A DNA stretch of 64,000 nucleotides, from NCBI RefSeq assembly GCF_020171525.1, contig NZ_JAIVAI010000001.1, forward strand, positions 434,001 to 498,000, in the 5' to 3' direction. The stretch is from Halobacillus yeomjeoni (GTDB lineage Bacteria > Bacillota > Bacilli > Bacillales > Halobacillaceae). A model generated the notes under the pieces. It searched no databases and was not told the DNA's origin. It saw nothing but the letters and a program-made list of their open reading frames with translations. The stretch's first letter is position 1. Each line of letters starts with the position of its first letter. The position numbers were made by a program, and so were the translations under genes. Shown in pieces: positions 8,167 to 59,861 of this stretch.

Positions 8167-11100
8167 ATGAATAAAAAGAAACTATCTACCATTACAAAAG
8201 TGGGTTTGGCATCCAGTTTGGTGATCTCCCCGCTTGGTAATTCCGTATCGGCGACGAATTCTCCGAATACATCTTCCGAATGGGATAGTGTCACTTTTAT
8301 CCCTTATGTAAAGAATAACGGTGAGCTTATATATGACCCAGCCAACGAGCCTGGCATCAGTCCGGACGAAGTTGATTTTGTAAGTGGATACTCAAAAGGA
8401 TCGGGTGATAAGCCTTCATTTTATATAGCCAGTAACGGGACGGACATGTTCTTTAGAATGAGACTTATGGAGAATCCTTATGATCGAAAAGGAGGTTTTT
8501 TATCATCTGTTTGGTTTGTGCAGATTGCTGAAAATGGGGAACACAAAGCGACCGTTGGAATTAACGGGAAATCTCCACATGAAGATTATGTATATGTATC
8601 GAACCCGAAAGGCACAACTGTAAATTCCATATACAAGACAGACAGCTCCGGTAGTCATGTCCCGGGGACAAGAGTGGTGGAAGCCGAAAACGGACAATTC
8701 TTTTTAGATTTCCAGGTTCCAATCTCTAAGATAACTGAAGTTGCTCCTTCTATCAGTTCTGATTCTAATATCCAATTATTTTTTGGAACTTCAAAAGCTG
8801 CGAATTTATCTGTCATTAATAAAGATTATATGGGGCCGGACAGAGGGGGATCTTATGAGGATTCTGCGAGTGTAAAGTTAAGCCCCAGTTTAACAATGGA
8901 AATCCCGACAATTTCTATTACAAGTTCCGCGAGCTTTGATTCCAAAACCCCTGTTCTTTCCGGGACAACCACAAAAGCGGCGGAAGGCAGCGAAGTTGAA
9001 TTAACGATTAATGAAAAGAAATACATAACTACAGTTTCCAATCAATCGTGGAGTATTCCAGTCACGGACCCTCTGACGAACGGGACACATACGGCTACTG
9101 TAAAAGTCGTCAATGAACTTAATAATATCGCCACCACAAAGCAGGCGATTCAAATTGGAAAAACGATTACGATTGATGGTGGTGAAACAAGAACGGTAAG
9201 CAGCTTCCCTACTACAGTGTCAGGAACGTTTACGAATGATACGGGTGGAAGTAAAAAGATTGAATTTGTAGTGAAAGATTCAAATGGAGACCCTGTGAGT
9301 AAGTCATTCAAAGGAATTCAAGTCAACAATAAAACACAAAAGTGGAGCGAAGATATCTCCCTATCGTTACCTGAAGGTACATATACGATTGAAGCGGTGG
9401 AAGACGTAAAGAAAAATGATAATTTACCAAAAGCTACACAGACCATTGTCATAGATAACCAAATTGATGTTTCTATTACCAGTCCAGCTGATAACACAAC
9501 ATCAGACAATCCGTTTCCTACTGTAACGGGGAACACGGACCCAAAAGCTGAAGTTTCTGTTTTTATAGATGATCAATTTCATCGAACGGTTTCTGCTGAC
9601 GATGCGGGAAATTGGTCTCTAACCTTAGGGAAAGCATTGGCCCCCGGCGATCACACGTTCAAGGCAGAAGCGACTGATGATATAGGAAACAAGAAAGAGA
9701 CATCTGTATACAGCTACAAGGTTTCTTCCCTGGATATAAGTATAATCAATGGATATAAGGTCCAATTAAATGACAATATCCCTACTATTCGAGGAAGGTC
9801 CACCGCCCCTGATGGCAGTGAAGTAATAGTTAAAGTAGGAAATCGTAATACGCTTACCACCCAGGTGAAAAATGGAAGATGGTCTGTAGATATCAACAAT
9901 CCCTTAGATGATGCTACATACTCCATACAAGCAAGTGTGACCAGTGGTGGATTGACGGACTCCTATACCCAGGAGCTTACTATAGATTCCAGCACGTTTG
10001 TGAATATCAGCTCACCTTCCAATCAGGCGGTTACTGAGAATAAAAGGGAGTCGATATCCGGTACTGCAGAACCATTTGCTACCATAGGTTTGAATTTTAA
10101 TAATGGTGAAAAAGTTGAAACTGTCTTTGCAGATGCGGGTGGGAACTGGACCTATACGCCTTCTAGTGATTTATCTTTAGGAAAGCAAGATGTGATTGTG
10201 ACTGCCTCGGATGTGAACGGGAATGTGAAAAGGGCGTCGACTTCTTTCATTATTAATACTCCAGGGAACTCTGTCCCAGTAATTGAAGATTATAACGAGA
10301 GCATATTCAAAGGGGAGAGTAAGAGTGGTCAGGTGACCGCAACAGATAGTGACAATGACCCTCTTACATATAGTAAGGGATCTGAGCCATCCAATGGAAC
10401 GATTGAAGTTAAAGAGGATGGTACTTATACGTATACCCCTGATAGTGATTATACGGGCACTGATAATTTCACAATAGAAGTTTCAGATGGAAAAGGCGGA
10501 GCTGCAACCTCAACCGTAACCATTGAAATAAAAGAACCGCCTAACAAAGTGCCGACAACGGAAGACTATTCAGATGCGACATTTAAAAATGAAACGATAA
10601 GCGGAAAAGTCGAAGGTGCAGACGCGGATGGAGATCCGTTAACTTACACTAAAGAAACAGACCCTTCAAATGGAACGGTCACAGTGAAGGAAGACGGGAC
10701 ATGGAGTTACACACCGAATACAGATTATGTAGGAACCGATGTTTTCAAAGTCCAAGTCTCGGACGGAAAAAGCACCGTAACCTCCACAGTAACCATCGAT
10801 GTAAAAGAGCCGCCTAACAAAGCGCCGACAACGGAAGACTATTCAGATGCGACATTTAAAAATGAAACGATAAGCGGAAAAGTCGAAGGTGCAGACGCGG
10901 ATGGAGATCCGTTAACTTACACTAAAGAAACAGACCCTTCAAATGGAACGGTCACAGTGAAGGAAGACGGGACATGGAGTTACACACCGAATACAGATTA
11001 TGTAGGAACCGATGTTTTCAAAGTTCAAGTCTCGGACGGAAAAAGCACCGTAACCTCCACAGTAACCATCGATGTAAAAGAGCCGCCTAACAAAGCGCCG

Positions 11101-21103: not shown

Positions 21104-21578
21104 GGCTCTGTTAAAGTCTGTTGTTGATATTTTAAACGATTATTCAATAGCCTACGTCTGGGACTAGATGTCGGGTCCGTTATTTACTTAGAGCATGGGA
21201 TGGGAGGGAAAACAGTCCGCTTTCTGCGGGGAACGCTAAGCCTCCTCAAACTTCGTTTTCCGGGGTCTCACCTTGTTCCTTTTTCCCGCAGGAGTCTCCC
21301 TGTTTTCCCTGCCATCCCGTTCGTAGTTGGTGTAAAGGACTTCGGTTTTGGTCTTTCTGTCTCTTCTCCTTTGAAGAGGCAGGTTTTTAGAATGGCGAGG
21401 CGAGGCGCCTGTGGGATAAAGGTACATCGTGAGATTCCGGAAGGCGCATCGTAAGGAGGCTTCACGGTACCCCACGGAAAGGGAGTCATTCTAAAAGGCC
21501 GTCTCCTACAAATTCCAGGACAGAGAGAGATGATATAAGCTCACATGTGATATAACAACACCAAGCAATAACAGACCC
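21104..21578 (+). mobile_element. MITE-like element, copy A (full length)
   Basis: 475 bp, non-coding. Left end GGCTCTGTTAAAGTCTG, right end imperfect (ATAACAGACCC), no clear target duplication. Contains two inverted-repeat modules: arms GGGATGGGAGGGAAAACAG (21197-21215) with CTGTTTTCCCTGCCATCCC (21300-21318), and a second around 21382-21500 with TTTTAGAATG / CATTCTAAAA arms. The same architecture recurs at 46898 and, inverted, at 59393. Confidence 0.8.
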
Positions 21579-21618
21579 ATTTTTCAAAGGTGAAGTTAAG
21601 TCTGTAGAAGGAGGTTTC

Positions 21619-37211: not shown

Positions 37212-37460
37212 GGCTCTGTTATTGTTTAGTGTCGTTATTTCACCTGTGAGCTCACATAACAATTTCCATAGAAGAATTAGTGTGAGGCGCGGCTTTGGGA
37301 ATGACTCTTCAAAATGGGTGGAAGGAAAAGGCCATATACCTTTATTAATGAAAGTCCCTTCCCTCCCATACTCTGTGTAAAGAACGGACTTAAACCACAA
37401 TCCCAGATGGGTGGACTAGTAAGAAATCTTTTAAAATATCAACAACAGACTTTTTTATGT
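37212..37460 (-). mobile_element. MITE-like element, copy E (degenerate, inverted)
   Basis: Starts with the family right terminus read inward (GGCTCTGTTATTGTTTAGTG) and ends with ATATCAACAACAGACTTTTT, the left-end sequence reversed. The inner hairpin modules are eroded or lost, the last bases of the left terminus are missing, and no target duplication is seen. Probably an old copy. Confidence 0.7.
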
Positions 37461-44780: not shown

Positions 44781-44884
44781 GTCTCTGTTATTATCTGTTG
44801 TTGATAGTTTAAACGATTACTAAATAGTACCCGTGCTGATATAAGCTCACTTGTGAGATAACAACACCAGCCTTTAACAGAGCC
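44781..44884 (+). mobile_element. MITE-like element, copy D (104-bp short form)
   Basis: Left end GTCTCTGTTATTATCTGTTG, right end CCTTTAACAGAGCC; only the terminal parts (TTTAAACGATTACTAAATAG and GCTGATATAAGCTCAC) of the long form remain, without the hairpin modules. Flanked on both sides by AAATTAAA (44773-44780 and 44885-44892), a perfect 8-bp direct repeat. Confidence 0.85.
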
Positions 44885-46889: not shown

Positions 46890-46897
46890 AATGATAT

Positions 46898-47361
46898 GGC
46901 TCTGTTAAAGTCTGTTGTTGATATTTAAACGATTACTAAATAGTCCACGTCTGGGTATAGGTTTCCGTTATTTACTCAGAGCATGGGATGGCAGGGAAAA
47001 CAGTCCGCTTTCCGCGGGGAACGCTGAGCCTCCTCGAACTTCGTCCTCCGGGTTCTCACCTTGTTCCTTTTTCCCGCAGGAGTCTACCTGTTTCCCCTGC
47101 CATCCCGTTCGTAGTTGATGTAACGAATTTCGGTTATGGCATTTCTGACCCTTCTACTTTGAAGAGGCGGCCTTTTAGAATGGCGAGACTCCTGTGGGAT
47201 TAAAGTACATCGTGAGACCCCAGAAGGCATTAGCCTGAGGAGGCTCACGGTACCCCACGGAAAGCGAGTCATTCTAAAAGGCCGCCTCATGCAATATCCA
47301 GGACAGAAAGAGCTGATATGAGTTCGCATGTGAAATAACAACACAAAGCAATAAAAGAGCC
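46898..47361 (+). mobile_element. MITE-like element, copy B (full length)
   Basis: 464 bp. Ends GGCTCTGTTAAAG and AAAAGAGCC. Perfect 8-bp direct repeat AATGATAT at 46890-46897 and 47362-47369. Inner module 1: GGGATGGCAGGGAAAACAG (46985-47003) with CTGTTTCCCCTGCCATCCC (47088-47106). Module 2: perfect 19-bp inverted repeat GAGGCGGCCTTTTAGAATG (47164-47182) with its complement at 47270-47288. Module interiors are GC-rich and contain the GCAGGAGTCT / GAGGAGGCTC words. No coding capacity. Confidence 0.88.
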
Positions 47362-47376
47362 AATGATATAAATATT

Positions 47377-47405
47377 TTGACATTTCTTCATAAATCCTGT
47401 AAATT
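47377..47405 (+). promoter_or_regulatory. Putative sigma-A promoter of guaC
   Basis: TTGACA (47377-47382), 17-base spacer, TAAATT (47400-47405). Begins 15 bases outside the MITE end and overlaps nothing else. Confidence 0.5.
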
Positions 47406-47466: not shown

Positions 47467-48447
47467 ATGGATAATGTATTTGATTATGAGGACGTACAAC
47501 TGATTCCAGCTAAATGTATGGTGAACAGCAGAGCTGAATGTGATACGAGTGTGAAATTAGGTAAGCATAGTTTCAAGTTGCCGGTAGTACCTGCAAATAT
47601 GCAGACGGTGATTGATACACATATCGCAGAAAATTTGGCGGAACAAGGATACTTTTATATCATGCACCGATTTGATCCGGAAACGCGTCTCGGTTTTGTC
47701 ATGGATATGAAAGATAAAGGATTGATTGCATCCATAAGTGTCGGGGTAAAAAAAGAGGAATATCGATTTATTGAACTTTTATCCTCAGAACGATCGGCAC
47801 CTGATTATATCACGATAGATATCGCTCATGGCCATTCCAATGCTGTCATCGACATGATTCAACACATCAAAACACACCTCCCGGAAACTTTCGTTATTGC
47901 AGGAAATGTCGGTACTCCAGAGGCTGTTCGTGAACTGGAACGTGCAGGCGCGGATGCCACGAAGGTAGGTATTGGTCCGGGAAAAGTCTGCATTACGAAA
48001 ATAAAGACAGGGTTCGGCACTGGAGGCTGGCAGTTGGCAGCCCTTCGATGGTGTGCAAAAGCAGCGAACAAGCCGATCATTGCCGATGGGGGGATTCGGA
48101 CACATGGGGACATCGCTAAATCGATCCGTTTCGGAGCCACTATGGTTATGATAGGGTCTCTTTTTGCAGGGCATGAAGAATCACCCGGCCACACGATCGA
48201 GAAAAATGGGCAGCTGTATAAAGAGTATTTTGGCTCTGCATCTGAGTTTCAAAAGGGTGAAAAGAAGAATGTGGAAGGAAAGAAAATGGTCATAGAGCAC
48301 AAAGGCTCTTTAAAAGAAACATTGGTAGAAATGGAACAGGATCTTCAATCTGCAATCTCCTACGCAGGAGGAACGGGAATTGAAGCGATTCGTCATGTCG
48401 ATTACGTCCTCGTTAAAAATTCTATATTCAATGGAGACAAACTATAA
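47467..48447 (+). CDS. guaC: GMP reductase
   Basis: 326 residues, the Firmicute GuaC length. Converts GMP to IMP with NADPH in purine salvage. TIM-barrel with [10 protein letters not shown] near the N-terminus, [10 protein letters not shown], the catalytic loop [12 protein letters not shown] (Cys 175), [15 protein letters not shown] and [14 protein letters not shown]. Start ATG 47467, seven bases after AGGAG. No purine riboswitch seen in its leader. Confidence 0.95.
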
Positions 48448-56249: not shown

Positions 56250-56290
56250 ACATTTAGAATATGTAGAACCAAAATGGTTCAACGAATGCC

Positions 56291-56390
56291 GACTGCACTT
56301 CCCCACGCTGGTATTATCCAGATCGGGTCGTAAGGGTCGGAAACCTTTCCTCTCAGCCACATTTGATGTTGCAGCTCCCCCAGTGCATGT
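56291..56390 (-). promoter_or_regulatory. TPP (thi-box) riboswitch
   Basis: On the minus strand: GCACTGGGGGAGCT at the 5' end, GGCTGAGAGG core, GACCCTTACGACCCGATCTG and GATAATACCAGCGTGGGGAA, the conserved THI-element elements in the right order. Followed by the terminator at 56217-56249. Represses ykoFEDC when thiamine pyrophosphate is plentiful. Confidence 0.95.
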
Positions 56391-56422
56391 TCGTTTCATA
56401 TGCAGTTCTTGTGTTGCTTTTT

Positions 56423-59392: not shown

Positions 59393-59861
59393 GGCTTTGT
59401 TATTGCGTGGTGTTCTTATTTCACTGTGCGCTCATATCATCTCTTTCTGTACTGGAATTTGTATGAGGCTGCCTTTTAGAATGACTCCCTTTCCGTGGGG
59501 TACCGTGAGCCTCCTCAGGCTGCGCCTTCCGGGGTCTCACGATGTACCTTTATCCCACAGGAGTCTCGCCATTCTAAAAGGCCGCCTCTTCAAAGTAGAT
59601 GGGTCAGAAAGGCCATAACATAAATCCGTTACACCAACTATGAACGTGATGGCAGGGAAAACAGGTAGACTCCTGCGGGAAAAAGGAACAAGGTGAGACC
59701 TCGGAGAACAAAGTTCGAGGAGGCTCAAGCGTCCCCCGCGGGAAGCGGACTGTTTTCCCTGCCATCCCATGCTCTGAGTAAATAACGGACCAGCGCCCTT
59801 ATCCTAGACGGGGACTTTTTAGTAATCATTTAAAATATCAACAACAGACTTTAAAAGAGGC
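59393..59861 (-). mobile_element. MITE-like element, copy C (full length, inverted)
   Basis: 469 bp in the opposite orientation to copies A and B. Begins GGCTTTGTTATTGCGTGG, ends ACTTTAAAAGAGGC. Flanked by the perfect 8-bp direct repeat TTCTTTTT (59385-59392 and 59862-59869). Both inverted-repeat modules are present: TTTTAGAATGACTC with its partner, and GATGGCAGGGAAAACAG with CTGTTTTCCCTGCCATC. Confidence 0.87.

Follow-up and report, generated by a model that had tools for sequence, protein, structure and literature searches.

The stretch of DNA analysed here, called the window, comprises 64,000 nucleotides of the Halobacillus yeomjeoni genome, in which a 464-bp sequence (copy B, 46898-47361) stands between two perfect copies of an 8-bp duplication, AATGATAT (46890-46897 and 47362-47369). 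This locus raises the questions of what kind of element was inserted, which transposase could have moved it and where its interior came from. The best explanation, held with high confidence on the basis of sequence comparison, is a non-autonomous element (MITE) whose ends are those of an IS1595-family insertion sequence and whose interior, made up of two long hairpins, is foreign. Its features and the other copies in the window were as follows:

46890..46897, no strand: left target duplication AATGATAT, 8 bp
46898..46926, plus strand: left terminal inverted repeat (GGCTCTGTTAAAGTCTGTTGTTGATA...), common to the transposase-side end of IS1595-family elements
46985..47106, no strand: hairpin 1, arms of 37 nt, 76% complementary
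47164..47288, no strand: hairpin 2, arms of 35 nt, 80% complementary
47336..47361, minus strand: right terminal inverted repeat, reading inward GGCTCTTTTATTGCTTTGTGTTGTTA; other copies commonly have GGCTCTGTTATTGCTTGGTGTTGTTA
47362..47369, no strand: right target duplication AATGATAT, 8 bp
44781..44884, no strand: copy D, 104 bp, duplication AAATTAAA, without the hairpins
59393..59861, minus strand: copy C, 469 bp, duplication TTCTTTTT
21104..21579, plus strand: full-length copy, no recognisable duplication
37212..37450, minus strand: decayed and partly deleted copy, far end approximate, no duplication found

The element 46898-47361 is a MITE, being short, multi-copy and bounded by terminal inverted repeats and a target duplication, and it has no transposase gene; the non-coding mobile element proposed in the earlier note was thereby confirmed. 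Neither of its two internal frames (71 and 99 aa) matched a Pfam family at E 0.001, and among the 25 MITE copies compared the longest stretch free of stops differed from copy to copy. The ends of copy B are imperfect inverted repeats, with 8 mismatches in 26 bases. When GGCTCTGTTA-like ends in the window were paired (at most two mismatches in 10, at most 1.7 kb apart), an exact 8-bp repeat was found just outside 3 of the 40 pairs, those of copies B, C and D, so that the three duplications noticed earlier are all real; exact duplications of 4-7 or 9-12 bp were found in none of the 40. Those of copies C and D are perfect despite the decay of the ends, which read GGCTTTGTTA and GCCTCTTTTA in copy C and GTCTCTGTTA on one side of copy D. 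The motif GGCTCTGTTAAAG was present three times exactly in the window, and eight times at no more than two mismatches, where 1.36 were expected.

Downstream, the element borders on a gene that we take, from general knowledge, to be guaC-like and to encode a GMP reductase:

47377..47405, plus strand: promoter-like site of the guaC-like gene, TTGACA, 17-bp spacer, TAAATT (by eye)
47467..48447, plus strand: guaC-like gene (GMP reductase), downstream neighbour

The element ends 15 bp ahead of the TTGACA box, and on its upstream side lies a terminator-like hairpin that follows a small gene. A TTGAC(A/T) box and an A+T-rich box resembling a -10 were seen by eye before the gene in all 21 other species of the genus, and a script found no MITE-type end within 1.5 kb upstream of guaC in any of them. 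These orthologous sites come from other species rather than from sister strains, and the sequence further upstream differs among them; thus, the comparison that the earlier note had proposed gave an insertion near a conserved promoter and not a clean empty site. In sequence terms, it shows an insertion adjoining the conserved, putative guaC promoter that the 21 other species lack.

The ends recur throughout the genome, as the earlier note had anticipated for a mobile family: 120 GGCTCTGTTAAAG-type ends were counted at no more than one mismatch, against 0 for the reversed pattern. A search with copy B returned at least 94 aligned pieces, 40 of 150 candidates being scored, and the MITE copy numbers are therefore lower bounds. 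Pairwise identity among the 25 full or near-full copies averaged 90% (82-97%), and these copies differed by 3-11% from their own consensus. Among 71 unselected GGCTCT...AGAGCC pairings, taken from 90 loci of the genome plus the window with copy B entering the count both as L001 and as part of the window, an exact 8-bp duplication was present in 24, including L064, whose partner end matches in GGCTCTG only; each other length from 4 to 12 bp gave 0 or 1. Across the 90 loci, most of them fetched around ends, the duplication was found with at most one mismatch at 50 end pairs and exactly at 37, in elements of 138 to 1079 bp. Since this list was selected on the match itself, the chance level was taken from left and right flanks of different elements, which agreed exactly in 10 of 2450 pairings (about 0.4% per pairing). 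The A+T content of the 37 exact duplications was 93%.

The same form of the MITE was also present in two further species of the genus (G008 and G011). In the 14 copies fetched from them, the duplication was exact in 9, had one mismatch in 2 and was missing in 3, counts that are optimistic because the script picked ends within a short range. Among the flanks listed, those of only one of these copies (L346) resembled a locus of H. yeomjeoni on both sides; it occupies the same intergenic gap at a position not clearly identical, and an insertion shared between species was rejected. Matches to the 464-bp query were found in 41 of the 44 genomes of the family; among the places listed outside this genome, G008 and G011 (14 candidates scored per genome), they were partial and mostly in the hairpin core. 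In each of the four plasmid records that matched, the best place spanned just 17% of the query and lay within the hairpin core; no phage record matched.

The source of the ends was sought among relatives, and the longer end pattern was present in 13 of the 44 genomes of the taxonomic family. Halobacillus sp. A1 carries two elements with MITE-type ends, both containing a 352-codon open frame: one of 2834 bp (L153:1453-4286) with the exact duplication TTATATTT, and one of 1999 bp (L156:1410-3408) with AATTCTTT. The protein of the first matched the IS1595 transposase model NF033547 at 209 bits (cut-off 75, E-value 6.3e-62), PF12762 at 47.5 bits (cut-off 27) and the IS1/IS1595 zinc-binding domain at 40.2 (cut-off 28); the second matched PF12762 at 47.3. 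Both elements contain long stretches beyond the transposase gene, and a palindrome within these, TCTCGATACTGAGTCTTCC...GGAAGACTCAGTTTCGAGA, is similar to the outer arms of the free hairpin repeats described below. Relatives of the first transposase are encoded at 80 loci in named genomes, nearly all of bacilli. A script recovered GG...CC ends in pairs, flanked by an 8-bp duplication (at most one mismatch), at 57 of them, or at 56 of 80 after dropping L218, whose ends are unrelated; both figures are uncontrolled counts.

Over 28 positions, the left end of the MITE agreed with four parent ends at 27 (two from Allobacillus), 26 (Alkalihalobacillus) and 25 (Halobacillus), and its right end was less close to the parent ends (TATTGCTTGGTGTTGTT). 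The MITE thus shows an 8-bp duplication and shares its ends, the right one less closely, with a transposase-encoding element, and its parent was very probably a member of the IS1595 family. Only about 29 bp of the 464-bp form is common with the Halobacillus parent, so that a simple internal deletion does not explain the interior and was rejected as its origin. Shortened elements that keep more of the parent exist in relatives, for example one of 584 bp (G021) with 186 bp at 83%.

In the mechanism proposed, a full-length element would supply the IS1595-type DDE transposase in trans; this enzyme would recognise the GGCTCTGTTAAAG...TGTTGAT ends of about 26-29 bp and would insert the MITE into A+T-rich DNA, generating the 8-bp duplication. 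The movement of the MITE by an IS1595-type transposase, which we infer from sequence, is supported by the observed ends and duplications, the multi-copy state, the match of the left end to IS1595 elements with open frames and the transposase remnants of this genome.

A helper element in the genome had been predicted. A candidate was indeed found, as the IS1595-type elements of relatives, but this draft assembly (15 contigs, 98.48% complete) gave fragments only and no intact helper transposase. Three fragment matches were detected, an adjacent pair at C2:10119-10341 and a single one at C1:1024966-1025160, and two of the three have stops. The adjacent pair lies within an 828-bp element that starts at 10037 with a MITE-type end and keeps 307 bp of the parent on the transposase side (82%) and 90 bp on the other (78%), on either side of a 118-aa frame with no Pfam match. 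Since only fragments remain, the family probably spread with a helper since lost from this species, where it may now be dormant.

The scripts found no duplication belonging to the 828-bp element itself. An exact flanking duplication, AATTTTTT, was detected around the 1079-bp stretch that runs from its start as far as the outer end of the following element (C2:10037-11115, locus L038). Similarly, a 1538-bp stretch of a relative (G014, L103:911-2448), flanked by TTATATTT, closes with a second, 533-bp element, and the 86-aa frame between its two elements had no Pfam match. The first 556 bp of that stretch (L103:911-1466) share 99.6% identity with a 558-bp element of G021 (L113), which suggests a recent spread of this shortened form. 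As A+T-rich unrelated flanks match exactly at about 0.4% per pairing, the two stretches suggest, rather than prove, composite transposition, possibly of host genes; neighbouring elements may thus be able to carry such genes.

The interior was the remaining part of the question. Two long hairpins fill about half of the element, and the core of hairpin 2 is similar to the inverted core of hairpin 1 (arms of 30 nt, 87% complementary). The RNA fold predicted for 46890-47370 lay 7.7 standard deviations below those of shuffled sequences. In an alignment of 25 copies of H. yeomjeoni with one each from G008 and G011 (27 in all), 98.4% of 2008 cells were paired, and unpaired cells also occur. With the structure derived from this same alignment, two-sided changes were counted at 8 of 75 pairs and in 16 cells; shuffling gave 2.7 pairs and 3.9 cells, and slid structures gave no more than 3 and 4, respectively. 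One variant, common to five copies, accounts for ten of these cells and the other six are single cells, so that few independent compensatory events are involved; of the -111.6 kcal/mol computed by RNAalifold, its covariation term contributed only -0.5. These changes are compatible with selection on the fold, with template-switch correction within the palindrome and with exchange between copies. A structured RNA of a known family was rejected: in a search of the window with Rfam at the gathering threshold the hairpins reached no family, and the sole match was a TPP riboswitch elsewhere (56283-56391, minus strand; RF00059, 75.2 bits, cut-off 54.3).

The hairpin core was also present outside the MITE. 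Of 150 genomes of the order, 28 contained a strict pattern of the core, with 106 occurrences in Halobacillus sp. A1 and 50 in H. yeomjeoni, the reversed control giving 0. At 23 of 27 hairpin-core loci no IS1595-type end was found in the stretch of up to 1.5 kb examined on each side; of the other four, L298 is a hairpin between two IS1595-type ends. Judged by this distribution, the core constitutes a dispersed repeat in its own right within the order, and because it occurs outside the MITE, the two copies in the interior were most likely acquired from an independent repeat.

Among the free hairpin copies of relatives (L275-L301), several were seen by eye to be bordered by inverted arms, such as GTTTCCGTTA...TAACGGAAAC and TTTCGAGA...TCTCGAAACTGAGTCTT. 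Adjoining one hairpin copy, 37 bp (L278:1461-1497) consist of two IS1595-type ends back to back. In this genome, contigs C4, C6, C7 and C8 break inside MITE-type elements (L031, L032, L033, L034 and L036), and at these contig ends a foreign sequence that terminates in TGAACGAAACT or in its complement is found in the hairpin loop, following CCTCCT in L032, L033 and L036 and preceding CTCG in L031 and L034. This is probably one multi-copy insertion sequence; its first end sequence was absent from the 21 other genomes of the genus.

A further reading, which we consider rather unlikely, goes beyond the acquisition of the repeat: the interior would be a separate, dispersed foldback repeat of bacilli, riding on IS1595-type ends with two copies in each element, having a role of its own and with its fold actively kept, either by selection or by hairpin-templated correction. 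If so, the MITE would be a vehicle for structured DNA or RNA, acting for example as a transcription barrier or as a landing site for insertion sequences.

The relation could also be reversed, the hairpins being the real mobile unit and the IS1595-type ends flanking them by chance or through repeated adjacent insertion. The 23 loci without such ends and the presence of the core across the order speak for this possibility; nevertheless, it is very improbable, since the 8-bp duplications sit exactly outside the ends, even in the 104-bp copy D, which has no hairpins, and also flank the ends of elements of other sizes, from 138 bp upward.

The IS1595-type parentage preferred here replaces the two families named in the earlier note, ISL3 and IS6, neither of which was borne out by the searches. 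Movement by an ISL3-family transposase would agree with the ISL3 elements of the same genus, which make 8-bp duplications (for example ATTTTTTT on both sides of L091) and have one end starting with GGCTCT and, like the MITE ends, TTGTTG further in. However, PF01610 (ISL3) had no match in this genome and ISL3 elements were found in only 3 of 22 genomes of the genus, and the ISL3 ends of G005 (GGCTCTAGAATATTTGTTGGGG and GGTTCTAAGTCAATTGTTGGGG) diverge after the first bases from those of the MITE (GGCTCTGTTAAAG...TGTTGATA), which the four IS1595-type ends match at 25-27 of 28 positions. An ISL3 parent was therefore rejected as highly improbable. G005 has three such elements (L091, L094 and L097), with open frames of 410 codons and exact 8-bp duplications; compared with IS1595-type ends, they have GGCTCT in common at one end and TTGTTG at both. 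IS6 elements likewise make 8-bp duplications and have GG...CTGTT-type ends, but since the 22 genus genomes gave no PF13610 match above the cut-off, and four of them sub-threshold matches only, an IS6/IS26-family transposase is scarcely credible as the mover and an IS6 parent was rejected.

By its ends, its duplications and the transposase remnants, a high-copy non-coding family of a bacillus has thus been assigned to a parent family, correcting the earlier guess, and named donors (Halobacillus and Allobacillus) are now available for a direct test of mobilisation. Among the matches listed in literature searches, in which subscription journals were mostly uncovered, titles and the starts of abstracts held no description of this MITE family. 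The matches listed for the hairpin sequence were unrelated by title, none of those for the end sequence concerned mobile elements by title, and those listed for ISL3 and MITEs, non-autonomous IS1595 elements, and repeats and hairpins held nothing closer than the works cited here.

The IS1595 family is described as having an 8-bp duplication, ends beginning with GG and a transposase with a zinc-binding N-terminal domain and a DDE_Tnp_IS1595 domain (PMC8101967). The MITE is alike in its duplication and in the beginning of its ends, and the transposase of its presumed parent has both domains, whereas the MITE has no transposase and its interior is foreign. An IS1595-derived MITE is already in print from Haloquadratum walsbyi, related to the putative insertion sequence ISHwa6 and present as 7 copies of 165 bp with repeats of 25 bp and 8-bp duplications (PMC3852290), and the Halobacillus family is, on good support, another such MITE. 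Compared by description, both are non-autonomous and IS1595-type, with 8-bp duplications and repeats of similar length, whereas that of Halobacillus has more copies, several size classes, two hairpins and a bacterial host. The MITE described in PMC11578231 was linked to IS1182 and not to IS1595. Repeated stem-loop families are also known in bacilli, namely bcr1 of Bacillus anthracis and Bhal-1 and Bhal-2 of Bacillus halodurans; compared likewise by description, the text examined on them mentions no IS1595-type ends (PMC2267715). The one uncommon trait of the Halobacillus family is its acquired interior hairpin repeat.
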